Positions 2,033-26,439 of a DNA stretch of 32,144 nucleotides are shown here, one piece after another. The notes under the pieces were generated by a model. That model was not told the DNA's origin. It did not search any database and saw only the letters and a list, made by a program, of their open reading frames with translations. Origin of the DNA: Rhizobium sp. Q54 (GTDB lineage Bacteria; Pseudomonadota; Alphaproteobacteria; UBA2966; CAIVPW01); assembly GCA_945889645.1 (NCBI GenBank), contig CAMDCA010000025.1, positions 1 through 32,144 on the forward strand, read 5' to 3'. The translations under genes were made by a program, and so were the position numbers. Each line of letters starts with the position of its first letter. The stretch's first letter is position 1.

Positions 2033-2907
2033 TTGGCTCTGCGCGGCGCTTTGCCGGTGCCCTCCGGTACCGTCCGGCGACCCTGCTTGCCCTCGCCCTG
2101 CTCGCAATAGTTGTGGTGTCGGCGCTGGCCGCGGCCATCGTCGCTCCGCACGATCCGATTCTGCAGCACCGCGACGCCTTCTTGGCGCCTCCGTTTTGGC
2201 TAGCGGACGGGCGTCCGGAATTCCTTCTCGGCACCGACGCGGCGGGTCGCGACGTGCTGTCGCGAATCCTCTACGGAGCCAGGGTTTCCCTGGTATTCGG
2301 AGCCATCGTCACCTTGCTCGCGGGGGCCGTAGGCGGGGCCGCCGGCGTGGCCTCGGCCGTGTGGCAAGGGTGGGTCGGCGGGGTGCTGGAACGGCTGGTG
2401 GACATCGTTCAGACGCTGCCTGTCCTGGTACTTGCTTTGGCCGTTATTGCGATCTTGGGGCCTGGGCAAGTGCCTGCAATCATTGCACTTTCCATAGCTC
2501 TGCTACCGGGGTTTGCAAGGATCGCGCGCGCCGCTACACTGGCGCAGCTTGGTAAGGAGTATGCCCTTGCCTCGCGGGCGCTGGGGGGTGCGAGCTTTCA
2601 CCTGATCCGATGGGTGGTCTTGCCGAACATCGGCGGGCCGCTTGTTGTGCAGGGCACGCTTGCGCTGTCCGAGGCGATCCTGGGCTTAGCGGCCCTTGGT
2701 TTCCTCGGCCTGGGACTGACGCCCCCGACGCCAGAGTGGGGCACGATGCTGGCCGATGGCCGGCCGTATGTGTTGAACGCGTGGTGGACGGTAGTAGTGC
2801 CGGGCGGCGCCATCCTCGTGACGGTTCTCAGTTTGAACCTCGCGGCTGACGGCCTCCGGGAAGCGCTGGACCCAAAAGCACCGATCGCAACAGGACCGAA
2901 TACTTGA
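2029..2907 (+). CDS. ABC transporter permease, peptide/nickel type (DppC-like)
   Basis: A 292-residue membrane protein beginning at the ATG that overlaps the stop of the upstream permease. An N-terminal helix precedes the periplasmic segment with LLGTDAAGRDVLSRILYGAR, the hallmark of the DppC/OppC N-terminal region. The binding-protein-dependent transport domain follows, with an EAA-type loop (GKEYALASRALGGASFHLI) and a conserved LGFLGLGLTPPTPEWG segment. Length and topology are normal. An open frame in the same phase extends much further upstream, but it lies inside the DppB-like gene and is a shadow; the ATG at 2029 gives the family start. The downstream cyclase gene begins within its stop codon. 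Confidence 0.88.
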   Translation: MIGSARRFAGALRYRPATLLALALLAIVVVSALAAAIVAPHDPILQHRDAFLAPPFWLADGRPEFLLGTDAAGRDVLSRILYGARVSLVFGAIVTLLAGAVGGAAGVASAVWQGWVGGVLERLVDIVQTLPVLVLALAVIAILGPGQVPAIIALSIALLPGFARIARAATLAQLGKEYALASRALGGASFHLIRWVVLPNIGGPLVVQGTLALSEAILGLAALGFLGLGLTPPTPEWGTMLADGRPYVLNAWWTVVVPGGAILVTVLSLNLAADGLREALDPKAPIATGPNT

Positions 2908-5900
2908 CCGTGCGCCTCGTCGAGACCCAGGAACCGAATAGCGCCACCGCGACCAACGCCAGTCTGGCGGAAGGTCGTCGCAAGGTGGTGACGATGATGT
3001 TTGCCGACATCGTCAATTCGTCGAGCCTGGTCATCGGCCGCGATCCCGAGGCCGCCAACGACACGCTGCTGCCGATGCTGCAAGGCATGATCGATGCCGT
3101 GCACCAGTACGGCGGCACCGTGCTGCAGATTCTCGGCGACGGCATCATGGCCGCGTTCGGTGCCCCCGAAGCGCAGGAAGACCATGCGCTGCGCGCCTGC
3201 CTCGCGGCTGAACAGATGCGCCGCGAGCTTGGCCAATGGCCGACCCATTCCAAGTCCGACCCGGAAAGCGTGCGTGGCGCGCGCATCCGCGTCGGCATCA
3301 ACTCCGGCGAAGTCCTGGCGCAGGAACTGCTCGCCGACCGTTGGCCCGAATATCGCGCCGCCGGCGAGGCGGTGTACGTCGCCGCGCGCCTGACGGAAGC
3401 GGCGAAGCCGGGCGTCATCCTGCTGTCGGCCGACACTGAGGCGATCGTGCGCGACGCGGTCGAAATCGGTGAACGCCGCTCCGTGCATCTCGGCAAGCAA
3501 CTGCCGCGCGCTGCGGCCGTCGAGTTGCTGCGCGTGCGGCCTGCCGGTGGCCGGCCCAAGCGCGTCAGCGTGGCTCCCTTCCTCGGCCGCGCACGCGAGC
3601 GCCATCTGCTCAACGAGGCGCTGCTGCGTGCCGGCCAAGGCAGCGGCGAGATCGTCGTCCTGCAGGGCGATGCCGGCATCGGCAAGAGCCGCCTGGTCAC
3701 CGAATTCGAGGCCGAGGCGCGTGGAGGCGGCAACATCGTCGTCCGCGCCGGGTGCTATCCGCCGCACCTGTTCGTGCCTCTGCCGCCGGTGGTCGAGGCT
3801 CTGCGCAGTGCGCTGACGCTGCTTGGCGTAGTAGGCCCCGACGACGTCAGCGCCGAGCGCGCGCTGGTTATCCTGACTCCGTTGCACCGCGCCGCCGTGG
3901 CGCAGATGCTCGGCGGCTCGCCCGCCGATGCGCAGTGGCAATTGCTCGGGCCGACCGAACGGCGTCACCTCACGCTGTCCGCCTGCGTCGAGGTATTCGA
4001 GCAACTGGCGCGCGGGCAACAGAGTCTGGTGCTGCTGTTCGAGGACGTGCACTGGGCCGACTCGGACCTGGGCCGGCTGATCGACCTCCTGTCGGTGCGG
4101 GTTCACCTCGGCCGTACGCTGGTCGTCATGACGCGCCGTCCGGGTGCCGACTTCCAGGACACGCCGTGGCCCAGCACGTCGGTGGTCGACGTCGATCCGC
4201 TCAGCAGTGAAGACTGCGTCGAACTGGTGGGCGCAGTGCTCGGCCGCGCGCCGTTCCTCGCGCCGCTCCGCAACCTGCTGGTCGACAAGACCGGCGGCAA
4301 TCCGTTCTTCCTGCTCGAGTGCATCACGGCGGTCGCCGAGTCCGGTCCGCTGACCGAGCGCGGCGGGGCGGCCACCGTGCAGAGCTGGTGTCGCGAGTTC
4401 GCCGTGCCGCCGACGATTCAGACTCTCTTGGCGGCGCGCATCGATCGCCTCGATCCCGCCGACCAGGAGCTGTTGAGCCGCGCGGCCGTCATCGGCCAAA
4501 CCTTCGCGCACCAGCTACTCGCCCGCATCGTCGGCGATCGCCGCGAACATCGGCTGGCCGCGCTCAATCGCCTGTGCCAGGCCGGGTTCCTGCAGCGCAC
4601 GCGCGTCGTGCCGCATCTGGAGTTCAGCTTCAAGCACGCGCTGATCCACGACGTCACCTACGGGTCGCTGCCGCGCACCGTGCGCAAGAATTTGCACAGC
4701 GCGCTGGTCAAGGCGCTGCGCTCGCGCAGCCTCGAGATCCCGAACCGCCTCAGCCTGCTGGCGCAGCACAGCCTGTGCTCCGAGCAGTGGGCGCGTGCCT
4801 TTGTCTTCGGCCAGGCGGCCGGCCGCGACGCTTTGCGCCGCTCGCAGCATCGCGAGGCAGCGGTGCTGCTTGAGGGCGCCGTGGGCGCGCTGGATCATTT
4901 CCCGCGTTCACGGCGCAACTACGTGCGCGCGGCCCAGGCGCGCCTCGATCTTGCCAACGCGTTGTTCCCGCTTGGTCGCCGGCAGGATGCCGAGCGCCAG
5001 CTGGTCGCGGCGCGCAATGCTGCCGGCCGGTCCAAGGACGCGCGCGTGCTCACGCGGACGTGGTCGAGTTTGACGTTGCATCACTGGGTTGCCGGCAATC
5101 TCGACACAGCGCACCGGCTAGGGCTGCGCGCGCTGAAGGCGGCCGACGCCAAGGACTATCGCGATCTCAGCCTCGTTAACATCAGCCGCCTGGGGTCGAT
5201 TGCCCTCGAGCGCGGCCGCGGCCACCAGGCACGCAAGTACCTGGAGAAGGCGTTGGCGTTGTCCGACGCGCAGCCGGGCACGCCGCACGCCGGTTTTCTC
5301 GTCGTTGCGCCGGTGGTGTTCCAAGGACCGCTTGCCATTGCGCTGGCCCAGCTCGGCCAGTACCGCGAGGCGATCGCGTTGTGCGACGCCGCGGTCACGG
5401 CCGCTGAGGAATCGGGCCATCTATTCAGCCAAGTGTACGCGCTGATGTCGGCCGGCAACGTCTACCTGTATCAGGGCGACTTCGAGCGTAGTGCGCGGCT
5501 GCTCGGGCAATCGCTCCGCCTGTGCCGTACGATCGGTTCAACCTTGTTGGTGCGCCAGATCGTCAGCGCCATGGGCTATGCGTTCCTGCACCTCGGCCGC
5601 ACGGAGGAAGGCTGCGCCTTGCTCGAAGACGCTGTGGGCTCAGCGACGCCGGACCCCATGGTCGGACAATTGCCGCAGCACCTGGGCTGGCTGTCGGTTG
5701 CCAAGCTCGCGCTCGGCAAGCATGCCGAGGCCGCGGTTGTCGCCCGTCGTGCCATCACGCTGGCGCGGCGCAACGGCCAGCGCGGCTACGAAGCCTGGGG
5801 CTGGTACGCTCTCGGTCGCGCGCAGCATGCGCTCGATATGCGCGGTGCGCTGCGCTCGCTGGAGCGTGCGCGCACCATCGCTGTGGCGTGCGGCTTGAAG

Positions 5901-6068
5901 CCGCTCGCCGCTCGTACGGAATCCGGTTGGGGCGCGTCTGAATCGGCTTCCGCCGCGTCAGACGAAACGCCAGCGGCACGGCCACGAAGCCGCGGCCATC
6001 TTCGCCTCGTCGGTGATAGCGGCGCTTCCGGCGCCGCACGTAGCGCTCGTCGGCTCGCCCTTACTTAG
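2904..6068 (+). CDS. Class III nucleotide cyclase - AAA ATPase - TPR regulatory protein
   Basis: A 1054-residue multidomain protein starting at TTG (2904), which overlaps the stop of the permease gene by four bases. Residues about 28-210 are a class III adenylate/guanylate cyclase domain with metal-binding aspartates at 35 (MMFADIV) and 79 (GDGIMAAFGAP). The transition-state motif usually read as VNxAAR is VYVAAR here, so the catalytic Asn is Tyr158 while Arg162 is kept. An AAA/NACHT-like ATPase follows, with Walker A GDAGIGKS (255-262) and Walker B LVLLFEDVHWAD (near 375-386). The C-terminal third is helical TPR-type repeats. The architecture matches the large soluble cyclase/ATPase regulators common in rhizobia. 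If active it makes cAMP, relevant because a Crp-family protein with a cAMP-type pocket is encoded 3 kb downstream. It ends convergently with, and overlaps by 8 bases, a small minus-strand gene. Confidence 0.9.
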   Translation: MTVRLVETQEPNSATATNASLAEGRRKVVTMMFADIVNSSSLVIGRDPEAANDTLLPMLQGMIDAVHQYGGTVLQILGDGIMAAFGAPEAQEDHALRACLAAEQMRRELGQWPTHSKSDPESVRGARIRVGINSGEVLAQELLADRWPEYRAAGEAVYVAARLTEAAKPGVILLSADTEAIVRDAVEIGERRSVHLGKQLPRAAAVELLRVRPAGGRPKRVSVAPFLGRARERHLLNEALLRAGQGSGEIVVLQGDAGIGKSRLVTEFEAEARGGGNIVVRAGCYPPHLFVPLPPVVEALRSALTLLGVVGPDDVSAERALVILTPLHRAAVAQMLGGSPADAQWQLLGPTERRHLTLSACVEVFEQLARGQQSLVLLFEDVHWADSDLGRLIDLLSVRVHLGRTLVVMTRRPGADFQDTPWPSTSVVDVDPLSSEDCVELVGAVLGRAPFLAPLRNLLVDKTGGNPFFLLECITAVAESGPLTERGGAATVQSWCREFAVPPTIQTLLAARIDRLDPADQELLSRAAVIGQTFAHQLLARIVGDRREHRLAALNRLCQAGFLQRTRVVPHLEFSFKHALIHDVTYGSLPRTVRKNLHSALVKALRSRSLEIPNRLSLLAQHSLCSEQWARAFVFGQAAGRDALRRSQHREAAVLLEGAVGALDHFPRSRRNYVRAAQARLDLANALFPLGRRQDAERQLVAARNAAGRSKDARVLTRTWSSLTLHHWVAGNLDTAHRLGLRALKAADAKDYRDLSLVNISRLGSIALERGRGHQARKYLEKALALSDAQPGTPHAGFLVVAPVVFQGPLAIALAQLGQYREAIALCDAAVTAAEESGHLFSQVYALMSAGNVYLYQGDFERSARLLGQSLRLCRTIGSTLLVRQIVSAMGYAFLHLGRTEEGCALLEDAVGSATPDPMVGQLPQHLGWLSVAKLALGKHAEAAVVARRAITLARRNGQRGYEAWGWYALGRAQHALDMRGALRSLERARTIAVACGLKPLAARTESGWGASESASAASDETPAARPRSRGHLRLVGDSGASGAARSARRLALT

Positions 6069-6291
6069 GCTCAGCCGACTTCTCACCCAGCGCGTCCAAG
6101 CACGCCTCGGCTGCCGCTCCGATCAATAGGGCGGCGAGCTCGGCGCGGTGACCCGTTGCCTCCAAGCGCAACTGGTCCAAGCACGCCTTGATGCTGTTGA
6201 GCGCATGCTCTCTGCGGCCGCGAGTCTGGGCTTGTGCTGCCGCGGCCCGATCCGCAGGAACCATCTTCGCGGCTGCAACTGCACTCTTCAT
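6061..6291 (-). CDS. Small helical protein of unknown function
   Basis: A 76-residue, Ala- and Arg-rich protein with no domain I recognise. The ATG at 6291 was chosen because a GGAG sequence lies about nine bases upstream on the minus strand and because upstream methionines give an unlikely basic extension. Most of it should be alpha-helical, with one moderately hydrophobic stretch (ELAALLIGAAAEACLDAL). It is convergent with the cyclase gene, overlapping it by 8 bases, and divergent from the repeat-peptide operon. It therefore shares the intergenic region that holds the CRP-like sites. It may be regulated with the operon, but nothing in the sequence shows a link in function. Confidence 0.55.
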   Translation of the reverse strand: MKSAVAAAKMVPADRAAAAQAQTRGRREHALNSIKACLDQLRLEATGHRAELAALLIGAAAEACLDALGEKSAEPK

Positions 6292-6367: not shown

Positions 6368-6415
6368 TGTGAAGCACTTCACACTACGGCTCACCAGCGG
6401 GTGAACCAATTCACA
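6368..6415 (+). promoter_or_regulatory. Tandem CRP-like operator sites upstream of the repeat-peptide operon
   Basis: Site 1 at 6368-6383, TGTGAAGCACTTCACA, is a perfect match to TGTGA-N6-TCACA. Site 2 at 6400-6415, GGTGAACCAATTCACA, differs at one core base. Their centres are 32 bp apart, about three helical turns, so both face the same side of the DNA. If site 2 sits at the class II position (-41.5), transcription would begin near 6449, with a TAAGTA-like -10 around 6437-6442. That promoter placement is inference. The operon itself encodes a Crp-family protein with CRP-type specificity residues. Confidence 0.7.
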
Positions 6416-6479: not shown

Positions 6480-6944
6480 ATGTCAGTGGGAACGCTTGTG
6501 CGGGGGCCGGATGGCCTCCTGTATGCGGTAGGTAATGGTACGGCGGCCGTGGTCGCTTCGAGCGACATGCCTGCGGTTGCGCCGGTTACGGCAGTGGCGG
6601 CAGCGACCGAGGATGCAGATGCCGGTCGATATTACGTGACGCCCGGCACCGATGCGAATGCCGGTCGCTACTATGTGACGCCGGGTGAGATCGCGGCGCA
6701 GGATTCGAATGCCGGTCGCTACTACGTGACGCCAGGCACCGATGCCGATGCCGGCCGCTACTACGTCACTCCGGGCAAGATTGAAGCCCAGGATGCCGAC
6801 GCCGGTCGCTACTACGTGACGCCAGGCACCGACGCAGACGCCGGCCGCTACTACGTCACCCCCGGTAAGGTCGAGGCGCGCGACAGCGCTGCCGGCCGCT
6901 ACTACGTGACGCCGGGCGACGAGAGCGAGACCGCGAACGCCTAA
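6480..6944 (+). CDS. Putative multi-core RiPP precursor with seven AGRYYVTPG repeats
   Basis: A 154-residue protein with a strong AGGAGA ribosome binding site at 6467-6472, seven bases before ATG. Residues 1-47 look like a leader (MSVGTLVRGPDGLLYAVGNG, then an Ala/Val-rich stretch) and resemble no signal peptide. From residue 48 the nonapeptide AGRYYVTPG occurs seven times (48, 61, 78, 91, 108, 121, 138), identical in every copy. Linkers alternate between four residues (TDAN or TDAD) and eight (EIAAQDSN, KIEAQDAD, KVEARDSA), so the real period is 30 residues. There is no cysteine anywhere, which rules out thiazole formation. Directly downstream are YcaO and TfuA genes; known YcaO-TfuA pairs thioamidate backbones, and thiovarsolin precursors are likewise modular. 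I infer that each nonapeptide is a core modified by that pair. A repetitive structural protein is the alternative, but the genomic context argues against it. Confidence 0.8.
   Translation: MSVGTLVRGPDGLLYAVGNGTAAVVASSDMPAVAPVTAVAAATEDADAGRYYVTPGTDANAGRYYVTPGEIAAQDSNAGRYYVTPGTDADAGRYYVTPGKIEAQDADAGRYYVTPGTDADAGRYYVTPGKVEARDSAAGRYYVTPGDESETANA
6621..6917 (+). repeat. Seven 27-bp coding repeats (AGRYYVTPG units)
   Basis: Units lie at 6621-6647, 6660-6686, 6711-6737, 6750-6776, 6801-6827, 6840-6866 and 6891-6917. The start-to-start spacing alternates 39 and 51 bases, giving a 90-base higher-order unit. Silent differences occur at eight of the nine codons between copies (for example CGA/CGC, TAT/TAC, GTG/GTC, ACG/ACT/ACC, CCC/CCA/CCG), with no amino-acid change. 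Units 3 and 5 are identical at the DNA level. Confidence 0.95.
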
Positions 6945-7013: not shown

Positions 7014-8330
7014 ATGCACACATCGCCCACCACCACGCGCCCGACGGCCAACACGACGGCCAACACGACGGCCACCACCACGCGCAAGGCGCACCATGCC
7101 GGCACGCACCGCACGGTCGCGCCGGAAGAAACCCTGAAGCGCATCACACCGCTGCTGCCGGCCATGGGCATCACGCGCGTCGCTAACGTCACGGGGCTCG
7201 ACCGGGTCGGCATTCCGGTCGTCATGGTGACACGGCCCAACTCGCGGTCGGTGTCGGTGTCGCAGGGCAAGGGCACGACGCTTACCGCCGCCAAGGTCTC
7301 CGGCATCATGGAGGCGATCGAGGGCTACCACGCCGAGCGCGTGCTGCTGCCCCTGAAGTTCGCCAGCTTCGAAGAGCTTCGCTACACGCACCAGGTCGTC
7401 AACGTCTACGCATTGCCGCGCGTGGGCTGCAGCACGTTCACGCCGCACACGCCGCTGCTGTGGACCGAAGGCCGCAGCCTCGTCACCGGCCAGCCGGTGT
7501 GGGTGCCGTTCGAGACGGTGCACCTGAATTACGTTTCGCCGATGCCGACTGGCAGCGGCTGCTTCATCGCCAGTTCCAACGGTCTGTCGTCCGGTAACAC
7601 GCTGGAAGAAGCCATCAGCCACGGCATCTCCGAGGTCGTCGAGCGCGACGCCGCCACCCTGTGGCACCGCATGGACGCGGACGCGCGCGCCAAGACTCGC
7701 GTCGACCTTGCGACGGTGCTCGACGGCTGGTGCTGCGATCTCATTAAGCGCTTCGATGCCGCCGGCATCGACATCGGCATCTGGGACATCACGTCCGACA
7801 TCGGACTGCCCGCCATCCTGTGCCGCGCGGTGCCGCGCGACGGAACGGTGCACGGCTTCCGCCCGGCGGTCGGCATGGGTTGCCATCCGGCGCCCGAAAT
7901 CGCGCTGTCGCGCGCGCTCACCGAAGCGGCGCAGAGCCGCCTGACGTTCATCTCCGGCGCGCGCGACGACATGCCGCGGTCCGAGTACGAGCACTTCCTC
8001 GACGCCGGCGTGCACAAGCGCTGGCAGTCGATGCTGCACGACGAGACGCCGCAGCGTTCGTTCCAGGACGTCGGCGGCTTGGCGACCGAATCGATCAGCG
8101 CCGACATCCGCCGCGAGGTCACGCGCGTCATGGAGTGCGGCGGCGAGGACGTCATCGTCGTCGACCTCACCAAGACGGAGTTCGGCATTCCGGTGGTGCG
8201 CGTCATCATCCCCGGACTGGAAGGCATCGACCATTCGTCCGAGTACGTGCCGGGGCGTCGCGCCCTGGGGCGCGCCACCAACGACTCGGCCGTGATCCGA
8301 TCGATGCCGGCGGCCGGGAGAGCCGCATGA
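7014..8330 (+). CDS. ycaO: YcaO-domain protein (ATP-dependent peptide backbone cyclodehydratase / thioamide synthetase)
   Basis: A 438-residue protein from the ATG at 7014. The first 30 residues are a low-complexity Thr/Ala/Asn stretch, so the exact start is uncertain; a start at 6978 would fall inside the hairpin. The YcaO fold signatures are visible: SVSQGKGTT (about 81-89), then the ATP/Mg-binding acidic motif EAIEGYHAER (100-109), and the second cluster EEAISHGISEVVERDA (near 199-214). YcaO enzymes activate an amide oxygen with ATP. With a Cys, Ser or Thr side chain they make azolines; with a TfuA partner and a sulfur donor they make thioamides. The gene overlaps tfuA by four bases (ATGA) and follows the repeat precursor, so the AGRYYVTPG units are the obvious substrate. 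Confidence 0.9.
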   Translation: MHTSPTTTRPTANTTANTTATTTRKAHHAGTHRTVAPEETLKRITPLLPAMGITRVANVTGLDRVGIPVVMVTRPNSRSVSVSQGKGTTLTAAKVSGIMEAIEGYHAERVLLPLKFASFEELRYTHQVVNVYALPRVGCSTFTPHTPLLWTEGRSLVTGQPVWVPFETVHLNYVSPMPTGSGCFIASSNGLSSGNTLEEAISHGISEVVERDAATLWHRMDADARAKTRVDLATVLDGWCCDLIKRFDAAGIDIGIWDITSDIGLPAILCRAVPRDGTVHGFRPAVGMGCHPAPEIALSRALTEAAQSRLTFISGARDDMPRSEYEHFLDAGVHKRWQSMLHDETPQRSFQDVGGLATESISADIRREVTRVMECGGEDVIVVDLTKTEFGIPVVRVIIPGLEGIDHSSEYVPGRRALGRATNDSAVIRSMPAAGRAA

Positions 8331-9079
8331 CCGTTTTCGTCTTCACCGGCCCGAGCCTGTCGCCCGAGGCCGCGCGCGAGCACCTCGACGCCATCTACAT
8401 GCCGCCGGCTTCGCAGGGCGACTTGATCCGCGTTCTGGCGCGCAAGCCGACGGCGATCGGCATCATCGACGGCTTCTTCCACAATGTTCCGGCGGTTTGG
8501 CACAAGGAAGTCCTCGCCGCCCTGTCCCAAGGCGTGCCGGTGTGGGGCAGCGCCAGCATGGGCGCCCTGCGCGCTGCTGAGCTCGCGGCGTTCGGCATGG
8601 TCGGCGTCGGCTCGGTGTTCGAGGCCTACCGCGACGGCATCATCGAGGATGACGACGAGGTTGCCGTCACCCACGGTCCGGCCGAGCTCGGCTACCTGGC
8701 CCTGTCCGAGGCCATGGTCAACGTGCGCTGCACGCTGGCGGACGCACACGCGTCCGGCGTCATCAGCGAGCGCACGCGCGGCCTGGTCGAACGCACCGCC
8801 AAGGAGACGCCGTACGTCGAGCGCACGTACGACCGCATCCTCAAGGCCGCGGCCGTCGCCGGGCTTGGCGGCCGCGATGCCGAGGTTCTGCGCGCCTGGC
8901 TGCCGGCCGGCCGGCGTGATCTCAAGCGCGACGACGCCATCCGCATGCTGCGCACCATGCGCGAACGCCTCGGTGCAGGCCCGGCCCGGGTATCGCCCAA
9001 GTTCCACTTCGAGGAAACGACGCTGTGGATGAGCGCAGTAAAGGGTACGCTAGACGGGAAGAGAGCGTCCCGGACGTAA
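8327..9079 (+). CDS. tfuA: TfuA-like protein, partner of YcaO
   Basis: A 250-residue protein starting in an ATGA overlap with the YcaO gene. It has the TfuA-like domain pattern: an N-terminal FTGPSLS strand-turn, GIIDGFFHNVPAVWHKEVLAAL, then VWGSASMGALRAAELAAFGM and GVGSVFEAYRDG. The family is named after the trifolitoxin-locus gene tfuA. In characterised YcaO-TfuA pairs (methyl-coenzyme M reductase thioglycine, thiovarsolin) it is needed for thioamide rather than azoline formation, probably for sulfur delivery. Tight translational coupling supports a stable complex. The Crp-family regulator follows after only six bases. The family assignment is secure; the reaction is inferred from the pairing. 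Confidence 0.9.
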   Translation: MTVFVFTGPSLSPEAAREHLDAIYMPPASQGDLIRVLARKPTAIGIIDGFFHNVPAVWHKEVLAALSQGVPVWGSASMGALRAAELAAFGMVGVGSVFEAYRDGIIEDDDEVAVTHGPAELGYLALSEAMVNVRCTLADAHASGVISERTRGLVERTAKETPYVERTYDRILKAAAVAGLGGRDAEVLRAWLPAGRRDLKRDDAIRMLRTMRERLGAGPARVSPKFHFEETTLWMSAVKGTLDGKRASRT

Positions 9080-9085
9080 TCCTGA

Positions 9086-10165
9086 ATGCCAGCCGCAGTC
9101 GACCTGCGGAGCGTAGTCACCAGCAACGTCATCTTTGGAGCCCTCGCTCCGGAAGAGGTTGATCGGCTGCTCGCTGCCGCCGCGATACGCTTCTACGAGA
9201 AAGATCAGCAGATCTTTCAGCAGGGCGACCTTGCGGACGGGCTCTATCTCGTCGTCAGCGGTCGCGTCGGCATTCGCACGTTGTCCGAGGACGGCAGCGA
9301 GATCTTCCTCAATATCCTTGAAACCGGCGCGGTGCTCGGCGAAATCGCCGCGGTTGACGGTGGCGCCCGCACCGCAGGCGCGGTGGCGATGGAACGCTCC
9401 GACCTGTTGTTCGTCGATCGCCGCACCTTCCACGGCCTGATGCTCGCCAGTCCGCCGCTGTGCGTCAGCCTGCTGACGCTGATGTGCGAACGCCTGCGCT
9501 GGACCAGCTCGATCATCGAGGACGCACACTTCCGCGACGTACGCACGCGGCTTGCCCGCCGCTTGCACAAGCTGGTCGCAGAATATGGCGTTCCCGACGC
9601 AGTGGGCGTGCGCATCCGGCTCAAGATGACGCAGGAAATGCTGGCGCGCATGCTGGGCGCCACGCGCGAGAGCGTGAACAAGGAACTGATGGGGCTGCAG
9701 CGCGCCGGCGTGCTCAGCTACAGCCGCGGCTACGTCACCATCCTCAATTCGGAAGAATTGCGCCGCGCCATCGAGCAGCAGCGTCGCACGCCCATGCCGC
9801 CGGTCGGCACGACCCCTGCCTCCGTCGGCACGACCCTTGCGTGGAGGGACGCATGGCCCCACCGGCGTCCCTGCTCGACACCTACCCGAAAAATGGCCGT
9901 GTGCGGCCGATCACAAGCCTACGGCCGGGCCTCGCTGCCGTCGGTGGGCGCCTTCCGTTGCCCGATGGTTGTGCAATTGGTGTCTGTTTTCTGGGCAAGC
10001 GCCCGGCGCCGACGCGTGCTGAGCAGCCGCGATGACGTGGCTGATTCTCGTGCTGTGGCTGGTCGGCGACGAACGCCTTCCGACACCGACGGGCACCCTG
10101 TTGCAGGCCCGCGAGACGTTTCCGACCGAAGCCGCCTGCGTGGCAGCGATCCCCCAATACCATGA
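9086..10165 (+). CDS. Crp/Fnr-family transcription regulator with atypical C-terminal extension
   Basis: The first 235 or so residues are a standard Crp-family protein. The cyclic-nucleotide-binding domain (about 15-125) has GEIAAVDGGARTAG, keeping the Glu (86) and Arg (95) that hold cAMP in E. coli CRP, with Thr96 in the Ser83 position. A dimerisation helix follows, then a winged helix-turn-helix with recognition helix TRESVNKEL (R194, E195, K199), comparable to CRP R180, E181 and R185. No FNR-type cysteine cluster is seen. It probably binds the TGTGA-N6-TCACA dyads upstream of the precursor. The frame then runs on for about 120 residues of low-complexity sequence, overlapping a small plausible gene at 10032. 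Family members end near 230-250 residues, so this tail may reflect a lost stop or a frameshift. Confidence 0.85.
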   Translation: MPAAVDLRSVVTSNVIFGALAPEEVDRLLAAAAIRFYEKDQQIFQQGDLADGLYLVVSGRVGIRTLSEDGSEIFLNILETGAVLGEIAAVDGGARTAGAVAMERSDLLFVDRRTFHGLMLASPPLCVSLLTLMCERLRWTSSIIEDAHFRDVRTRLARRLHKLVAEYGVPDAVGVRIRLKMTQEMLARMLGATRESVNKELMGLQRAGVLSYSRGYVTILNSEELRRAIEQQRRTPMPPVGTTPASVGTTLAWRDAWPHRRPCSTPTRKMAVCGRSQAYGRASLPSVGAFRCPMVVQLVSVFWASARRRRVLSSRDDVADSRAVAGRRRTPSDTDGHPVAGPRDVSDRSRLRGSDPPIP

Positions 10166-12736: not shown

Positions 12737-12798
12737 CGGGATTTTGGAGCGGGAGAAGGGATTCGAACCCTCGACCCCAACCTTGGCAAGGTTGTGCT
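12737..12798. repeat. attL: 62-bp direct repeat of the tRNA-Gly 3' end
   Basis: Identical over 62 bases to 29375-29436. It contains the 3' 54 bases of tRNA-Gly(GCC), as its complement, from the encoded CCA (12745-12747) to the D-arm boundary, plus 8 downstream bases. The D-arm and 5' acceptor half are missing, so this copy cannot be a functional tRNA. Confidence 0.95.
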
Positions 12799-12812
12799 AG
12801 GCTTCTTACCCC

Positions 12813-12939
12813 TGGTTCCGCCAGTTTGATGGCGCTTTCTCGTCCTTGACGACAGCCGGTTACAGGGCCAACGTCAAGGTTGTGATCGCTATCTCAAACT
12901 TACCCGAGTTGGTTCCGGCCTGGTTCCGCGGTGGTTCCG
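12813..12939 (+). promoter_or_regulatory. Left-arm TGGTTCCG repeats (putative integrase arm-binding sites)
   Basis: TGGTTCCG occurs in the same orientation at 12813-12820, 12910-12917, 12921-12928 and 12932-12939, just inside attL and ahead of the integrase gene. The last two, with their 3-base spacer, are repeated exactly near attR (29298-29316). Direct octamers flanking both att cores are typical of arm-type integrase or excisionase sites. Confidence 0.65.
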
Positions 12940-12976
12940 AGGTCCGATGCCGACTTCCCGGAACCATTACACCGTC

Positions 12977-14218
12977 ATGCCGAAGCTAACCAAGCGTTTC
13001 ATGGACGCCCTCAAGCCGGTGCCCGACTGCGAGACTTTCGTCTGGGACTCCGAACTCAAGGGCTTTGGCGTGCGGCTCATGCCGAGCGGCACGGGTGCCT
13101 ATGTGGTCAAGTACCGAAACGCCGAATCCCGCCAGCGCAAGCTCGTGCTCGGGCGCATCAACACCCTAACTCCCGACGAGGCACGCCGGCGGGCGGCCGC
13201 TGCGCTGGCCGCGGTGGCGGCCGGAGATGATCCGTCGGCCGACCGGAACGCCGCCCGTAACGCGATGACCGTCACCGAGCTCTGCGACTGGTACGTCACC
13301 GAGGCCAAAGGTCGAGTGAAGCCTTCGACTTTGGCGATGGACGAATCCCGCATCGAGCGGCACGTGAAGCCTCTGCTTGGTCGCCGCTCTGTGGCTGGTA
13401 TCAACCTCGCGGATGTCGAGCGTTTTCAGGCGTCCGTGGCCGCGGGCAAGACGGCTATGGCGCGCGAGGGTCGGGGCGGGGCGACCACCGGCGGCAAGGG
13501 TGTCGCGGCTCGCACTGTCGGCATGCTGGGCACGATCATGGAGTTCGCCCGACGTCACAAGGTCATCACTGAGAATCCCGTCCGCGGCGTTCGCCGCTTT
13601 CCAGATCAGAAAGCAAACAGGTTCCTATCGGGCGATGAGCTTGGCGCGCTCGGCGCGGCGATGCGCGAGTCGGAGACGGAAAACGCGACCGGCATTGCGG
13701 TCATCAAGGCGCTGCTGCTCACCGGCTGTCGTCGGAATGAAATCCTCTCGTTGCCCTGGGGGTGGCTCGATGCCGCCGCGTCATGCATTCGCTTCGGTGA
13801 CACAAAATCCGGCGCCCAACTCCGACCCATCGGCCGTGCTGCTGCCGATCACCTCGGTAGCCGTGAGCGCAAGAGCGAGTGCGAGTGGGTGTTTCCCGCT
13901 GATCGGGGCGATGGGCATTTTGTGGGGGTGCGGCGCGTCCTGGAGCGGCTGTGCGTCAAAGCCGGGCTCGCGGACGTGACCGTCCACACACTCCGTCACT
14001 CGTTCGCAGCAGCCGCAGCCGAGATGGGCTTCTCCGAACTCACGATTGCCGGGTTGCTCGGACACAAGGTGCGGGGCGTAACGGCGCGCTATGCCCATGT
14101 GCCCGATGCCGTGCTGGTCGTTGCGGCCGACCGGTTGTCGGCCCGCATCCTAGCCGCCCTTGAGGGTGAGGAACTCGAGACAGCGAAAATCGTCCCGCTC
14201 CGAAGCGGCACGGGTTGA
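12977..14218 (+). CDS. int: Tyrosine recombinase/integrase (P4-like, tRNA-targeting)
   Basis: A 413-residue integrase from ATG 12977 (MPKLTKRFMDAL), the usual family start; an upstream in-frame ATG at 12947 adds ten unlikely residues. The N-terminal DUF4102-like arm-binding domain (about 1-90) includes WDSELKGFGVRLMPSGTGAYVVKYR. The core-binding SAM-like domain spans about 95-195. The catalytic domain has the Arg in LLTGCRRNEILSLPW, HTLRHSFA (His-x-x-Arg), the GLLGHK histidine and the nucleophile in ARYAHV. Length and motifs are complete, so it should be active. It lies beside attL with the TGGTTCCG repeats between, and it would recombine the 62-bp tRNA-Gly cores. Confidence 0.95.
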   Translation: MPKLTKRFMDALKPVPDCETFVWDSELKGFGVRLMPSGTGAYVVKYRNAESRQRKLVLGRINTLTPDEARRRAAAALAAVAAGDDPSADRNAARNAMTVTELCDWYVTEAKGRVKPSTLAMDESRIERHVKPLLGRRSVAGINLADVERFQASVAAGKTAMAREGRGGATTGGKGVAARTVGMLGTIMEFARRHKVITENPVRGVRRFPDQKANRFLSGDELGALGAAMRESETENATGIAVIKALLLTGCRRNEILSLPWGWLDAAASCIRFGDTKSGAQLRPIGRAAADHLGSRERKSECEWVFPADRGDGHFVGVRRVLERLCVKAGLADVTVHTLRHSFAAAAAEMGFSELTIAGLLGHKVRGVTARYAHVPDAVLVVAADRLSARILAALEGEELETAKIVPLRSGTG

Positions 14219-14224
14219 AATGGG

Positions 14225-15115
14225 ATGGCAGACGTGAAGGATTCGCGAGGCCGTAAGCCGCGTCGCCCTCGCGGAGACCAGCGCAAGAAGACCGTCGGGC
14301 GCTCCCTCACAGCCCGCCCTTCGTGGCGCATAGAACAATGTGTCACGAGTGCCGACATCGACCGTATCGTTAAAGCAGTTGGCATCCGGCTCCCGTCCGG
14401 CGCTGCCCGGCCCAGTGTTCCGCTGGAGTCAGGCGCATCGAAAGACCATTGGGGGTCGCGATCGGCAGCGCTGCGTGCGCGGCTAGATTCGGCCGTCAAA
14501 CTCTGGAGATTCGAACAAAGCCTCGAGCGGCTTCCGACGCCACACGAAGTTTCGGATGCTTTTGCCAAGATTGATCGGCATGCAACAGCATTGCTCCAGA
14601 TCTTGGATCCCGACGGGCAAAGGCACCTTCACGCAGTCTTCTTGGAGTTGAGCCGCAGGGCACGGCGCGAAGGCACCAGAGGAATGGCGAGGCGCAATGC
14701 CCACGCCGATGACGCGACATTTGACGAGAAGTGGATTGTCGCAGGTACGGAGGCCGCAGCGTCTCTGGCGGATGTGGTCCCGCGGCTGCGCGATCTACGG
14801 CGATGGTCGCAAATGCCGACTGCGCAACGGTTCGGCATCACATCCGGTCGGATTCGCGCAGGCGAAGGTCCGCTCGACAACCTCCTTGGTCGACTAGCGC
14901 TTGCCTGGAAGGAAATCTGGGAACAACGGCCGACGCTCACTTTCGATCCGATCGAAGGCGAAGTTGTTGGCGGACCCTTCCTTAGCTTCCTTCGTGCGGT
15001 AGTGGACCCTCTGCTTGGGCCTAGTGCGCCGTCGGACGACGCGATTCGGCAAAGGATCGGATCGCTGCCGGGCCGGTCTCCGCGGCGGCGAACGCCTAAG
15101 GTGGAGTCAGAGTGA
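14225..15115 (+). CDS. Hypothetical protein of the integrated element
   Basis: A 296-residue protein that begins six bases after the integrase stop and is presumably co-transcribed with it. The N-terminus is strongly basic (RGRKPRRPRGDQRKKTVGRS) and the C-terminus is again Arg-rich. The middle is helical with Trp/Leu patterns, for example SAVKLWRFEQSLERLPTPHEV and LALAWKEIWEQRPTL. I recognise no catalytic motif, zinc site or membrane segment. The basic ends suggest nucleic-acid binding, but that is only a guess. Confidence 0.7.
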   Translation: MADVKDSRGRKPRRPRGDQRKKTVGRSLTARPSWRIEQCVTSADIDRIVKAVGIRLPSGAARPSVPLESGASKDHWGSRSAALRARLDSAVKLWRFEQSLERLPTPHEVSDAFAKIDRHATALLQILDPDGQRHLHAVFLELSRRARREGTRGMARRNAHADDATFDEKWIVAGTEAAASLADVVPRLRDLRRWSQMPTAQRFGITSGRIRAGEGPLDNLLGRLALAWKEIWEQRPTLTFDPIEGEVVGGPFLSFLRAVVDPLLGPSAPSDDAIRQRIGSLPGRSPRRRTPKVESE

Positions 15116-15198
15116 GAAAAAGGTCCGAGGCCACCTTATGAATTAGCATAGGAAGCGCGCTTCATACTCCGGCTGGATGCGTTTGCCGGAGGTTCGTC

Positions 15199-15471
15199 AT
15201 GGAGTTCTCAAATCGACCCCGCCGCCGCAGGGAAGCGGCTACCTACCTGTTCGAACGGCACGGCATCCAACGCACGCCTGGTACACTGGCCAAGCTTGCT
15301 TCGGTGGGCGGCGGCCCCGAGTTTCGCCGGGTAGGGCGCGTGCCGCTTTACTCGCTTGAGGCCCTTGATCGCTGGGCCGAATCGATGACGAGCCCGCCAG
15401 TCCACAACACCAGCGAACTCCGACGCGGCGCCGTGCTGCACAGCGCTAAGCGCACCAAGGCATCCTCATGA
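15199..15471 (+). CDS. Small helix-turn-helix protein, excisionase/AlpA-like
   Basis: A 90-residue protein with a good ribosome binding site (GGAGG at 15187-15191, eight bases from ATG). Its body, REAATYLFERHGIQRTPGTL followed by AKLASVGGGPEFRRVGRVPL and YSLEALDRWAES, has the winged-helix pattern of MerR/AlpA/Xis proteins: an initial helix-turn-helix, then the GxGPxFxxxGxxxxYxxxDLDxWxxS signature. In such elements it acts as recombination directionality factor or as an activator of the replication operon. Its last four bases overlap the start of the primase gene (ATGA), so the two are coupled. Confidence 0.8.
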   Translation: MEFSNRPRRRREAATYLFERHGIQRTPGTLAKLASVGGGPEFRRVGRVPLYSLEALDRWAESMTSPPVHNTSELRRGAVLHSAKRTKASS

Positions 15472-17753
15472 GCGGTGTTTCGGTGCCCCCCTACGCCGCA
15501 GTAGGCCAGCGCCTCATCGAGCGCGGCTTCTCCGCCATCCCCATCGTCCCCGGCGAAAAGCGCCCCGGTGAGTTCAAGGGCGGCGAATGGCGCGGGATGT
15601 ACCAATGGGACCGATTCTGCGACCGCATGCCGTCGCACTTCGAGATCGATATTTGGAGCGGCTGGCTCGACGCTGGCGTGTGCGTCGCGCTCGGCAAGAT
15701 CAGCAACCTCACCGCGATTGACTTCGACTACGGCAGCGACTCGGTGCGCGCCGCGCTTGAGGCGATCCTGCCGCCGTCGCCGGTGCGCAAAACCGGCAAG
15801 AAGGGCTACACCGCGTTCTACCAAGGGTACGCACTCGAGTCGCGGAAGTTCATCGTCGCCAAGCAGTCCGTGATCGAGGTGCTGGCGCAGGGCAAGCAAA
15901 CGGTCCTGCCGCCGACGATCCACCCCGACGGCATGCCGTACCGCTGGATCACGCAAGAGACGCTCGAAAGCATGACCGCTGGCGAGCTTCCGACGCTGCC
16001 CGCCGACCTGCACGAACAGATCGCGCGCACGCTGTCGCCGTTCCAGACCGACGAAGACCGAGGCTCGCCCGCCCCGCGCGCGCTGCAAGTGACCGAGGGA
16101 TCCTATTGGCGCGAGGTGAACGACCGCGCCATGGCCGACTTCGGCGTGTGGGTGCCGCAGCTTTTCCCGCACGCCAAGCCGAGCAGGATGGGCACCTACC
16201 GCGTCATCGCGCACTGGCGCGACTGCGAAAAGCCGAACGTGTCGATCCACAGCGAAGGCATCACGGATTGGGGCCTGGGCGAGAACATGACGCCGATCGA
16301 CCTCGTGATGAAGGCGACCGCCAGCGACCTCGAAGCGGCAACCAGATGGCTGAAAGACCGTGTAGGCATGCCGACATTGGACGCGCTGCCGATTATGGCG
16401 ATGAAGTCGATGGCGCAGGAGAAACCGGCGCCGGCGGTCGAGAAGATCGACGGCGACGGCGTGACTACCGAGGCTCCCGCTCCAGCGCTTCCAGCGGAGC
16501 GCCCCACGCCGCCTGCGCCAGCGGGCTACTTCAAGATCGAGGGCGCCGTTGGCATGTTTGTCGACCACATCAATAAGACGTCGCGCCGGCCGCAGCCCGT
16601 GCTCGCGGTCGGGGCCGTGCTCTGCGCCATCGGCGCGCTGATGGGGCGCAAGTACCGCAGCCCGACGAATCTCCGCACCAATCTCTACGCTATCTCGGTG
16701 GCCGACTCCGGCGCCGGCAAGAACCACGCCCGCGAGGAGATCGACCGTGTTCTGCGCGAGGCTGGACTCAGCAGGTACATCGGCGGCAACAAGATCGCCT
16801 CAGGCGCCGCATTGTTGACTGCCGCTCTGCGACAACCAGCAATCCTGTTCATGCAGGATGAGTTCGGCCAATTCCTATCGGCTATCACTGATCGTAGGCG
16901 CAGTCCCAAGCACGTTGTCGAAATTGTGGACTTGCTGACCGAACTCTTCACGACGGCCGCCACAACCTTCCGCGGGACTGAGTACGCCGACCAACGCGAA
17001 CGCCCTCGGCGAGACATCATCAATCCTTGCGTGTGCGTTTACGGAACGACTACGCCCCAGTCACTGTGGCCCTCATTGTCATCTGCCAATGCCTTCGATG
17101 GATCGCTGGCGCGCTTTCTCTTGTTTGAGACCGATGACAGCTATCCGCCGGCACACATGGCCGAAAATGGACCGCCGCCCAGAGAGCTTGTCGATCTTCT
17201 GAAACGCATCGCATCCCGTGAGGGAAACGTGGCAGACGTTCTTGCCGGCGACTCGCAGCCGCCCGAGCCGATTGTCGTGCCCTACACGAGCGACGCCGGA
17301 GCGCAGATTGGGGAGTTCGATGACACTTGCATCCAGACGCTTCGAGAGGCCGCAGGCACCAAGTTCTCGGCCGTTCTCGCGCGGCAGTTCGAGCTAACGA
17401 TCAAGGTCGCATTGATCAGCGCTGTCGGGCGCAATCCAGAACAACCAATCATCGACGTCGGCGACTTCGAGTGGGCGCGTCTCGTAGTTCAGCGCAGCAT
17501 CGACCTCATGGTCGGAAGCATAGAAAGATTCGTCGCGGACAACGAGACGGAGCGCAGGGCCAAGGCAATTCTCGAGTGCATCCGGAAAGCCGGCAAACAC
17601 GGAATCAGCAAGACCCAGCTAACAGTCAGGAATCAGTATCTCAAGGCGACCGAGATTGACGATGTGATCAAGACACTGATCCAATCAGAGCAGATCACGT
17701 TCGATGTTGTTCCGGGAAAAACGAAGCCGCAGACCATCTACCGGGCGCTGTGA
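15468..17753 (+). CDS. Prim-pol / DUF3987-type ATPase replication protein
   Basis: A 761-residue replication protein. Residues 1-185 are a bifunctional primase-polymerase domain: the GEKRP stretch, then LTAIDFDYG with the catalytic acidic pair near residue 84, and a later VIEVLAQGKQTVLPPTIHP segment containing the family basic and His residues. The central third has a DUF3987-like ATPase/helicase module with a Walker-A-like GAGKNHA (about 414-420) and ILFMQDEFGQF (about 458-468). The C-terminus looks like a small winged-helix segment. Such proteins drive replication of plasmids, satellite phages and integrative elements. The frame stays open for 51 codons beyond the TGA at 17751 with protein-like sequence, so relatives may be longer. 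Confidence 0.85.
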   Translation: MSGVSVPPYAAVGQRLIERGFSAIPIVPGEKRPGEFKGGEWRGMYQWDRFCDRMPSHFEIDIWSGWLDAGVCVALGKISNLTAIDFDYGSDSVRAALEAILPPSPVRKTGKKGYTAFYQGYALESRKFIVAKQSVIEVLAQGKQTVLPPTIHPDGMPYRWITQETLESMTAGELPTLPADLHEQIARTLSPFQTDEDRGSPAPRALQVTEGSYWREVNDRAMADFGVWVPQLFPHAKPSRMGTYRVIAHWRDCEKPNVSIHSEGITDWGLGENMTPIDLVMKATASDLEAATRWLKDRVGMPTLDALPIMAMKSMAQEKPAPAVEKIDGDGVTTEAPAPALPAERPTPPAPAGYFKIEGAVGMFVDHINKTSRRPQPVLAVGAVLCAIGALMGRKYRSPTNLRTNLYAISVADSGAGKNHAREEIDRVLREAGLSRYIGGNKIASGAALLTAALRQPAILFMQDEFGQFLSAITDRRRSPKHVVEIVDLLTELFTTAATTFRGTEYADQRERPRRDIINPCVCVYGTTTPQSLWPSLSSANAFDGSLARFLLFETDDSYPPAHMAENGPPPRELVDLLKRIASREGNVADVLAGDSQPPEPIVVPYTSDAGAQIGEFDDTCIQTLREAAGTKFSAVLARQFELTIKVALISAVGRNPEQPIIDVGDFEWARLVVQRSIDLMVGSIERFVADNETERRAKAILECIRKAGKHGISKTQLTVRNQYLKATEIDDVIKTLIQSEQITFDVVPGKTKPQTIYRAL

Positions 17754-18148
17754 TGGGACCGTTGCTTGCTCGAAGTTCCATTCGACGAGTCGGCCGAGGT
17801 TGAGGCGCTGAAGACCGCCAGAGTAGCCTCTTGGTTTCTTCAATCTTTCAATTCTTCAGGTGACGTACGTCCGGCTTTGCGATGCGCTTCTCTGGCCGAG
17901 CATCGATAGAAAGATTGAACTATTGAAGAATCTTCTCTTTCAATCATCGCCGGCCTCTGCTCACCAGCGCATCGCACTGCGTACTAGACGGCCGCGAGGC
18001 GCTACGGCGATTTCGCGGTCCGGGTGGGAGGATCACCGTCGAAGAATTGAAATCGGCCGCCACGCAGCGTGCACGCCGCTCTGGGGGCGCTTCGGACCCG
18101 TGACTACCTGCTGGCTCAGGACGGCGATCACGACAGGGATGAAATAGA
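17754..18148. other. Intergenic region with AT-rich iteron-like repeats (possible origin)
   Basis: No convincing gene. The most A/T-rich patch of the element holds TTCAATCTTTC (17840-17850) with its exact inverse GAAAGATTGAA at 17909-17919. ATTCTTCA (17852-17859) has its inverse TGAAGAAT at 17924-17931. CTTTCAAT appears at 17846-17853 and again at 17937-17944. The pairs are interleaved rather than nested, so this is not one simple hairpin. Position directly after the replication protein suggests an origin. A 95-residue open frame here (17860-18147) looks spurious. Confidence 0.45.
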
Positions 18149-18457
18149 TCATTCCTCCAGCTCATAGCCGGCGCTCCGCAAAACACTTCGGTTGTCCATT
18201 ACTCGACCCGCCATCCTGCCGATAGACGCTGCGTCTTCCAGTTCCCTCCTGACCGCCTTCCTTAGAACCAACTCTAGCTCCCGCGTGCTGCTGTCGAGTG
18301 CAGCTGCTACTTGTAGGGCCGACGCCAAGAATGCCGCCTTGTCAGGCGCGCTCGGATGCAGGTCCACAATCAGTTGCAGCATAAGGGGCCAGCGGCGGGC
18401 CCAGTCAGGCAGCTGATCCCATCCCGCCTCGTCAGTGGTTTCTCTTTCGCCACTCAT
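18149..18457 (-). CDS. Small hypothetical protein of the integrated element
   Basis: A 102-residue acidic, mostly helical protein starting MSGERETTDEAGWDQLPDWA, with AGAGG-like purines just upstream of the ATG. The middle segment (MLQLIVDLHPSAPDKAAFLASALQVAAAL) and the end (RKAVRRELEDAASIGRMAGRV) form amphipathic helices with no known motif. It is transcribed in the same direction as the DUF932 gene, 72 bases away, and opposite to the replication genes. Its function is unknown. Confidence 0.6.
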   Translation of the reverse strand: MSGERETTDEAGWDQLPDWARRWPLMLQLIVDLHPSAPDKAAFLASALQVAAALDSSTRELELVLRKAVRRELEDAASIGRMAGRVMDNRSVLRSAGYELEE

Positions 18458-18529
18458 GCACGGAACCTCTTGCGAATTTCAGCGCGGCCGAAGGTAGTCT
18501 GTGGGCGCGGTGCCAGGAGAAGAGGATAG

Positions 18530-19528
18530 CTAACCATGCGAATGAGCGGGGCGTCCGGGCGCCGCCTCAATCCGTGGTTCGTCGCCGGCTACACCCAATT
18601 CAGGAATGTACTCGTCCAACGAAAAACCGGGCGACTGGCAGCGACGACTGAAGTCAGTGACCCAGGCGCCGGCCAATCGCTGGAGTCCATGACGCTCGCG
18701 ATTCACTAAACGGTTCGACGGGGGCGCCGACGCGAACTCCGTGACCGCATTTAGCGCGGCGTATGCATTTTCTCCAAGCTGGCCTTCGTACCTGTCGCAA
18801 ATGCCCTGCACGTGGTGGTGCAGCCCATCCCATGCTTCCATCTCAGATCGACTCGGCTTAATCCTCGGGCGCAGACGCAACACCGCCTCAACCAGCGGAG
18901 TGAGGTGTCTGTTTGGAACCAGGAATCCACGGAACACCTTCAGGTAACCCGCAAGGGCTTCCTTCAGTTTTGTAAAGCGCTCGCCAGCGCGCTCGAATTC
19001 GACCGGCGCGAGCCGCACGCCTGGCCCGTGGGCGAACTTGAACTGGACTTGCGATTGTCTGAGCATCAACCCATTCGCGCACACCTTCCGGTAGAAGCCG
19101 ATGTCAAAGGTGAGAGCGCGCAAACCGTTGTAGCTGTTTGTCACGCGGATGAATGGGCCGTAGGCGTCCGGCCGGTCCTTAGCGACGACGGTTTCGAAAT
19201 CTAACGCGCCAGAGTTGTGAACCAGATCGATATAGCAGTGTGCCCCGCTCTGTGGAGCATCGACCGATCGCACCTGCCATTCGCCTTCGTGATTGCCGCC
19301 GAATGCCGCCCTGCAGCATTGGCGCGCTAGATCGAGCGCCTCCTGGTTGGTGACCACGCGGTAGCTTCGGGCAACGACGCCCACCACGCGATCAGCAGCC
19401 GCGTTCACAATGGCCTTCTTGCCTGGAATCGGGAGCGACCTCGCAGCGGCGCCCTGACCACCTTCCGCAAAAATTGGCCTTTCAACCACCGGAAACAGCA
19501 GGTCCTGCAGGCTCCTTAACCGTTCCAT
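18530..19528 (-). CDS. DUF932 family protein
   Basis: A 332-residue protein. The ATG at 19528 is chosen over upstream options because GGAGGAGAC lies directly before it. The segment VVARSYRVVTNQEALDLARQC starts the DUF932 core. It continues through FIRVTNSYNGLRALTFDIGFYRKVCANGL, a pattern recognisable in phage- and plasmid-encoded DUF932 proteins. The conserved Asn/Arg/Cys-containing block (RKVCANGLML) is intact. The biochemical role of the family is not established; its members are typical of mobile elements and may act on DNA or nucleotides. Here it sits between small unknown genes on the minus strand. Confidence 0.75.
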   Translation of the reverse strand: MERLRSLQDLLFPVVERPIFAEGGQGAAARSLPIPGKKAIVNAAADRVVGVVARSYRVVTNQEALDLARQCCRAAFGGNHEGEWQVRSVDAPQSGAHCYIDLVHNSGALDFETVVAKDRPDAYGPFIRVTNSYNGLRALTFDIGFYRKVCANGLMLRQSQVQFKFAHGPGVRLAPVEFERAGERFTKLKEALAGYLKVFRGFLVPNRHLTPLVEAVLRLRPRIKPSRSEMEAWDGLHHHVQGICDRYEGQLGENAYAALNAVTEFASAPPSNRLVNRERHGLQRLAGAWVTDFSRRCQSPGFSLDEYIPELGVAGDEPRIEAAPGRPAHSHG

Positions 19529-19724
19529 TGTCTCCTCCAGTAAGGTCCGCCACCAGAAACCGCAGACGCCTAGCTCTTCCAGTACCGGCCCGAGGAGAAG
19601 GTGGCACCATTTGGGTGCGGGCGGCGCCCGAACCAACTTCGCGCCGGCACGCGCGGCGTTTGGCTTCATCTGAGGCGGGCCACTGGCGGCGCGAATCAAC
19701 GGTCGCCGACTGTCCCCTGCTGGC

Positions 19725-19976
19725 TCACTTTGGGCGCTGATATGCGAACAAAGAGGTCCCGGCCAAACTGCGCTGCGCGACCCTAGAGCGCATCGGCCTT
19801 TGCAGGATTCGATTCAGCAGGACCTTTGCGCTGATCCGCTCGGCGCCAGGGATCACAAGCTGCGTTCCGTCGGTTGGGTAGCGCATTCGCGGAGCAGGAA
19901 CAGGCTTCTCCGTTCCAGGAATAACGAACTGGAGACCCGCTGAAGTTCGTTCGACGTTGAAGCGCGGCTTACGCAT
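19725..19976 (-). CDS. Small hypothetical protein with a duplicated VIPG motif
   Basis: An 83-residue basic protein from the ATG at 19976, with purines (GGACGGAG) seven or more bases upstream. Two short related segments, LQFVIPGTE and TQLVIPGAE, are separated by 26 residues, pointing to an internal duplication. The C-terminus is Arg-rich (RILQRPMRSRVAQRSLAG). No family is recognised. It is divergent from the restriction operon across a 303-bp gap, so it could be a regulator of it or simply an accessory gene. Confidence 0.5.
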   Translation of the reverse strand: MRKPRFNVERTSAGLQFVIPGTEKPVPAPRMRYPTDGTQLVIPGAERISAKVLLNRILQRPMRSRVAQRSLAGTSLFAYQRPK

Positions 19977-23357: not shown

Positions 23358-23359
23358 CA

Positions 23360-26424: not shown

Positions 26425-26439
26425 AATTTTGGTGCCGAG

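Follow-up and report, generated by a model that had tools for sequence, protein, structure and literature searches.

A seven-core YcaO-TfuA precursor gene and a possible lineage-specific peptide signal read by a neighboring TPR protein

Introduction

The 32,144 nucleotides of Rhizobium sp. Q54 contig CAMDCA010000025.1 that were analyzed here (the window) contain a 154-aa open reading frame (bp 6480–6944, + strand) that includes seven exact copies of the peptide AGRYYVTPG. What does such a gene make, and which parts of the repeated peptide matter? The answer towards which we lean is that it encodes the precursor of a probably thioamidated, lineage-specific peptide signal that would be read by the neighboring TPR protein. 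To our knowledge, most YcaO-TfuA peptides of Proteobacteria have no known biological role, and a literature search found no paper connecting Azospirillum, whose loci figure prominently below, to TfuA/YcaO clusters and none connecting YcaO-TfuA peptides to signaling.

The seven-core precursor gene

The 154-aa protein consists of a leader (MSVGTLVRGPDGLLYAVGNGTAAVV) homologous to that of Azospirillum precursors, a spacer, and seven cores (bp 6621–6917, + strand) whose copies start at bp 6621, 6660, 6711, 6750, 6801, 6840, and 6891. Short (TDA[ND]) and long (8 aa) linkers alternate between the cores, as they also do in both array-bearing relatives (G004 and G007, below), and the linker sequences (TDAN/TDAD and EIAAQDSN/KIEAQDAD/KVEARDSA) are as given in a preliminary description of this DNA. 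That description argued for purifying selection on the peptide from silent differences in eight of its nine codons, and within the window array this is borne out: the Ala codon (GCC) alone does not vary, and the minimum number of core changes is 10 silent and 0 replacements, where the probability that all ten would be silent under random mutation is about 4e-6 to 1e-5. It also noted that the linkers vary while the peptide does not. Greater variation than in the core is found in the long linkers (a minimum of 7 replacements and 5 silent changes; Fisher p=0.005 in comparison with the core) but not in the short ones, whose changes are mostly silent (1 replacement and 4 silent) and do not differ from those in the core. 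The identity of copies 3 and 5 indicates that the array grew in part by duplication of a 90-bp two-core unit; the minimum-event count of 10 silent changes and 0 replacements is independent of this duplication. Matches of the precursor to EspG, choline-binding, rpoC1, and other Pfam/NCBIfam models lie below cut-off and are driven by the repeats, and were set aside.

The gene cluster

Five genes make up the cluster. Upstream of the precursor is a STAND-type sensor (1054 aa; bp 2904–6068, + strand) with a class III cyclase domain, an AAA_16 ATPase, and a MalT-like TPR superhelix. Downstream are genes for a YcaO protein of the type that is paired with TfuA (bp 7014–8330, + strand; PF02624, E 5e-86), whose nearest solved structure is MJ1094 (6pe3), a TfuA-like protein (bp 8327–9079, + strand; PF07812, E 9.5e-48), and a CRP-like regulator (bp 9086–10165, + strand) with a cNMP-binding domain and an HTH_Crp_2 domain. 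Since YcaO, TfuA, and CRP-like genes follow it and the cyclase/AAA/TPR gene precedes it, ORF 6480–6944 is identified on sequence and context as a YcaO-TfuA-type RiPP precursor with multiple cores. The hallmarks of such clusters are neighboring ycaO and tfuA genes with a small ORF containing leader and core beside them. YcaO-TfuA pairs install the thioamides of McrA (PMC5589413) and those of thiovarsolin (PMC6511847). By homology, the product of ORF 6480–6944 is probably thioamidated as well; the two window proteins score below the equivalog cut-offs for McrA-glycine thioamidation (TIGR03266 and NF033432), at 273.9 against 365 for YcaO and 226.7 bits against 235.2 for TfuA.

The CRP-like protein has the recognition helix TRESVNK, and its cNMP pocket (GEI..RTA) and helix ([TS]RExVNK) are kept in the aligned relatives, in agreement with the GE..R[ST]A pocket and RE-type recognition helix of CRP-type regulators. 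It may bind two CRP-type palindromes in front of the precursor. Box 1 (TGTGAAGCACTTCACA; bp 6368–6383, a site without strand assignment, as is box 2) lies 96 bp before the precursor start and matches TGTGAN6TCACA at 10 of 10 positions, and box 2 (GGTGAACCAATTCACA; bp 6400–6415) lies 32 bp after box 1; the G004 boxes are likewise paired at 32 bp (L022, 5401 and 5433). A homologous upstream site with 9 or 10 of the 10 matches is present at all 34 of 34 precursors, and a tighter palindrome (TGTGAANNNNTTCACA), allowing at most one mismatch, has three sites in the window's whole genome, two of which are those before the precursor. The third (TGTGAACTGCTTCACC, one mismatch; G000:C24:4508–4523, locus L070) is near ABC transporter ATPase and radical-SAM-like ORFs. 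Between sensor and precursor lies a small ORF of 76 aa on the opposite strand (bp 6064–6291, − strand) without a Pfam match; similar ORFs occur in G004 and G007, and an RHH_4 protein is encoded at the same place in Azospirillum. The CRP box therefore sits between two divergent genes.

The conserved gene set includes no exporter, protease, or re-uptake gene. A Dpp/Opp-type peptide importer (SBP, DppB, and DppC; bp 172–2907) ends at the start of the sensor gene, an arrangement that is repeated in G007 (L013) but was not found upstream in G004; it was rejected as a member of the cluster, as it adjoins the sensor in the window and G007 only.

Relatives and the history of the core

Among 191 related genomes the precursor is present, besides the window's own, only in G004 (same genus), with six copies of AGRYM[IV][TS]P[GSE], and G007 (same family), with twenty copies of AGRWA[VI][TS]P[DE]. 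The gene order precursor-YcaO-TfuA-CRP-like is common to all three, and is found again, with the sensor upstream, in about 30 Azospirillum-type genomes; a YcaO scan of 84,980 species genomes gave 47 loci, mostly in Azospirillum. The Azospirillum-type precursors are about 65 aa long and share a leader (RGADGRL[YF]..), with one C-terminal core directly upstream of YcaO-TfuA (for example HEAARHAITPGL, HQAGRYLVTPGL, and HEAGRFSITPGA). They were found by the leader motif, having been missed by the core motif GR[aromatic]..[TS]P, and at least 27 have the single C-terminal core D-x-[EQ]-[AS]-x-R-x-x-[IV]-[TSA]-[PS]-[GN]. A YcaO tree places the three array-bearing genomes in a single clade (100/99) beside Azospirillum (the two join at 89/83); Niveispirillum and Oleisolibacter fall outside this group. 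The simplest history would be one multiplication of an ancestral single core.

Other loci depart from this pattern. Those of Niveispirillum and Oleisolibacter (L052–L055) have the same leader with other C-termini (ASAELHSARS; TAGADFVNPRFP), so the cluster appears to make other cores too. A. canadense and A. rugosum (L036 and L038) keep the YcaO, TfuA, and CRP-like genes, and a recognizable precursor or sensor was not found at the usual place. No precursor was found with the motif used at the Indioceanicola locus (L078). The YcaO loci of a second lineage (L056–L068) are without a CRP gene or are cut off.

Constrained and variable residues

The 27 single-core precursors show which positions are held. 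The Arg and the Asp at −3 have an entropy of 0 bits and the Glu at −1 has 0.3 bits, and the segment [IV][TSA][PS][GN] is retained throughout. The two residues after the Arg (c4-c5, YY in the window; the core pair), on the other hand, reach the core's highest entropies (2.8 and 3.1 bits). Their pN/pS ratios are 1.2 and 1.8; these ratios come from pairwise counts rather than a likelihood test, and silent sites are partly saturated. The preliminary description took AGRYYVTPG as the functional unit and the linkers as mere processing spacers, and named free variation of these residues in orthologs as the observation that would count against it. Such variation is seen at the YY pair and not at the other positions; the nonapeptide is consequently not the unit conserved among relatives, and the flanking D-x-[DE] of the supposed spacer belongs to what is conserved. 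Judged from these alignments, the conserved unit needs to be redrawn so as to include this part of the linker and to have a variable center.

Within each array the same pair is constant, YY in 7 of 7, YM in 6 of 6, and WA in 20 of 20 copies (33 copies in all). Silent changes do occur inside it (TAT/TAC in the window and GCA/GCG/GCC in G007), and V/I, T/S, and the last residue vary within the G004 and G007 arrays. Because the pair is constant in 33 copies despite these silent changes and the variation nearby, selection holds it uniform inside a genome while it diverges between genomes. Constancy of bulk repeats alone would not predict uniformity within and change between genomes.

The sensor and its co-variation with the core

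In the cyclase domain of the sensor both metal-binding Asp residues are kept, the transition-state Asn is replaced by Tyr or His in nearly all sensors, and the Arg is Arg or Lys; cyclase activity and a cNMP output are uncertain, because the usual transition-state Asn is replaced. The TPR superhelix occupies about residues 660–1000 (bp 4881–5903, + strand), and an AlphaFold model of residues 540–1054 is a TPR superhelix with mean pLDDT 82.7. Its fold matches include TPR-peptide complexes (LGN/Pins), the STAND TPR sensor 6mfv, and a pheromone-bound Rap protein (8rsv), at TM-scores that are moderate, as is usual for superhelices; sequence matches include RapF and MalT. In A. lipoferum 4B (plasmid AZO_p4; L076, 726–4652) an IS5 transposase splits the TPR part of the sensor, and the precursor and enzymes are intact.

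The TPR part is hypervariable in the Azospirillum relatives, where sensor variability is 0.02–0.4 bits before residue 660 and 0.7–1.8 bits after it. Simple hypervariability of the concave TPR surface is not supported, as variability is greater in the second helix of each pair than in the first. The cyclase, AAA, YcaO, TfuA, and CRP sequences of ten close Azospirillum genomes differ little, and the TPR region differs widely when the core pair differs. For example, loci L039 (FS) and L051 (IM) differ by 2.7% in YcaO, 2.6% in TfuA, and 1.2% in CRP, and within the sensor by 1.2% in the cyclase domain, 7.4% in AAA, and 33% and 69% in the two TPR halves; L039 and L041 (both FS) differ by 6.8% in YcaO and by 3% and 23% in the TPR halves. 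Across the ten genomes a partial Mantel test of core pair against TPR distance, with YcaO/TfuA/CRP as control, gives r=0.84 (p=0.0004), and the same test is not significant for the cyclase domain (0.08) or AAA (0.17). TPR distances are 0.10–0.34 for same-core pairs and 0.33–0.68 for different-core pairs at equal background (0.10 and 0.09). Co-variation of a core with the adjacent receptor domain while other genes are conserved, the mark of a pherotype locus, is thus present in the Azospirillum relatives. In the window's own genus the TPR region is not unusually diverged (window against G004: TPR 0.22–0.30, AAA 0.24, YcaO 0.19).

At the DNA level the divergent part is a block that begins near the start of the TPR region and extends as far as the precursor stop codon, intergenic DNA included, and differs by about 50%, and by up to 69%, between genomes that are 1–5% different elsewhere; same-core genomes lack this contrast between block and flanks. 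The leader inside the block is conserved while c4-c5 change.

Cassette exchange is observed among these relatives. Four plasmid records obtained later served as a hold-out and agree with the pattern in the ten genomes; one of them, L074, shares its sensor sequence exactly with L045 and adds nothing independent. The A. ramasamyi cyclase and AAA domains (TM core pair) are nearest to those of YS and FS genomes (3.6 and 4.2%), and its TPR region is nearest to those of two TM genomes (18 and 27%, against 65–66% for YS/FS). The TPR region of A. lipoferum 4B (YS) is close to those of FS genomes (7–15%).

A possible signal, and alternatives

If the locus makes a signal, the precursor would be the source of a ribosomally made, YcaO/TfuA-modified peptide, its ancestral single core having been multiplied to seven. 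The leader-bearing precursor would be modified in its backbone by YcaO/TfuA and cleaved to short peptides that contain [AG]R-x-x-[IV]-[TS]-P, which would be exported and then taken up again. The TPR superhelix of the cyclase/AAA/TPR protein could recognize the peptide through the variable pair x-x, and the sensor and CRP-like regulator would in turn regulate transcription via the palindromes in front of the precursor gene. A broader formulation, put forward with some hesitation, is a Gram-negative peptide pheromone system composed of a YcaO-TfuA thioamidated RiPP signal and a STAND-type cyclase/AAA/TPR receptor, in which pherotypes are swapped between Azospirillum species as a cassette and signal dosage has been raised in the window's lineage by 6–20x multiplication of the core.

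Core/TPR co-variation would be expected equally if the product were a thioamidated, toxin-like antimicrobial RiPP whose cognate sensor or immunity function is polymorphic, the two co-varying like bacteriocin-immunity pairs. Allelic cassettes occur in toxin-immunity loci too. The characterized bacterial YcaO-TfuA products described in the portions of the literature that our search retrieved are bioactive peptides or thiovarsolins. We regard an antimicrobial as unlikely, however, since the locus has neither an exporter nor a recognizable immunity gene, the protein that co-varies is organized like a transcription/signaling STAND ATPase, and the conserved set includes a CRP-type box and regulator.

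The TPR end of the sensor gene adjoins the precursor, so linkage within one recombined block could produce the co-variation without physical matching, and the correlation alone could come from this source. The TPR-precursor segment would then be a hot spot of recombination or a block of old alleles forming one tract, as its contiguity through intergenic DNA to the precursor stop would allow. We consider this unlikely: flanks of 1–5% beside a block of about 50% indicate very old alleles that were kept apart and re-imported, both ends of the block are at functional boundaries, the conserved leader lies inside it with the changing c4-c5, and neutral linkage leaves the persistence of old alleles unexplained. 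That old alleles have been kept apart with these boundaries argues for, without proving, a TPR and precursor matched in function.

It is highly improbable that the repeats make up a repeat protein with a structural or binding role and no connection to peptide processing, in spite of the in-frame tandem repeats common in such proteins and a cluster without a protease, given that homologous precursors of about 65 aa, which share the leader but have one core, lie immediately before YcaO-TfuA. A conserved functional nonapeptide AGRYYVTPG with inert linkers, which the absence of replacements within the window array would suit, has hardly any standing against the variability of positions 4–5 and the conserved D-x-[DE] among relatives.

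Should the signal reading be correct, it would mean modified-peptide signaling in Gram-negatives for which a receptor, a promoter box, and specificity residues have been proposed from the start. In Azospirillum, which is culturable and associated with plants, the natural alleles of the locus form a series in which a signal/cognate-receptor role can be tested.

Comparison with known systems

The nearest parallel to the enzymes and repeated cores is the thiovarsolin cluster of Streptomyces varsoviensis (VarA/VarY/VarT; PMC6511847), where a YcaO-TfuA pair is found beside a repeated-core precursor, and precursor, YcaO, and TfuA are enough for thioamidated short peptides. That cluster differs in being actinobacterial, in its leader and core (APR), and in its heme oxygenase, MFS, and ligase genes, and the parts of that report used here do not describe a cyclase/AAA/TPR sensor, CRP gene, or CRP box. 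Conversely, the window core is AGRYYVTPG rather than APR/GPR repeats, and no heme oxygenase gene (compare VarO) was found among the scanned cluster genes.

The sensor resembles the TOMM system kinase/cyclase (TIGR03903, named by NCBI as part of TOMM peptide clusters), matching model positions 269–1138 with 294 bits, but this is far below the cut-off of 705.75 bits and the first 268 positions, the kinase part, are unmatched; unlike TOMM neighborhoods, the window cluster has no azole cyclodehydratase or dehydrogenase.

The Azospirillum core/TPR pattern looks comparable, by analogy, to the ComX/ComP pherotypes of the Bacillus ComQXPA system (PMC5385187), in which precursor and ligand-binding sensor half are polymorphic and the output half and downstream regulator are conserved. 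That system, however, has a membrane histidine kinase in ComP and an isoprenylated ComX, whereas the window cluster has a cytoplasmic-looking TPR/AAA/cyclase protein and YcaO-TfuA enzymes. With the RRNPP receptors (Rap, PlcR, Rgg) the sensor shares a TPR superhelix as the likely peptide receptor, and RapF and Rap-Phi3T are among its TPR sequence and fold matches; these receptors are Gram-positive, use mostly unmodified short peptides, and have no AAA or cyclase domain.

An integrative element

A 16.6-kb integrative element (bp 12737–29436; integrase at bp 12947–14218) with perfect 62-bp direct repeats overlapping a tRNA-Gly(gcc) gene at bp 29383–29457 is inserted so that it separates the RiPP cluster from a thioredoxin/TPR gene, which is near the cluster in G004 (L012). 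Its cargo includes a UvrD-like helicase and a type III methyltransferase, for which there is a candidate restriction partner.
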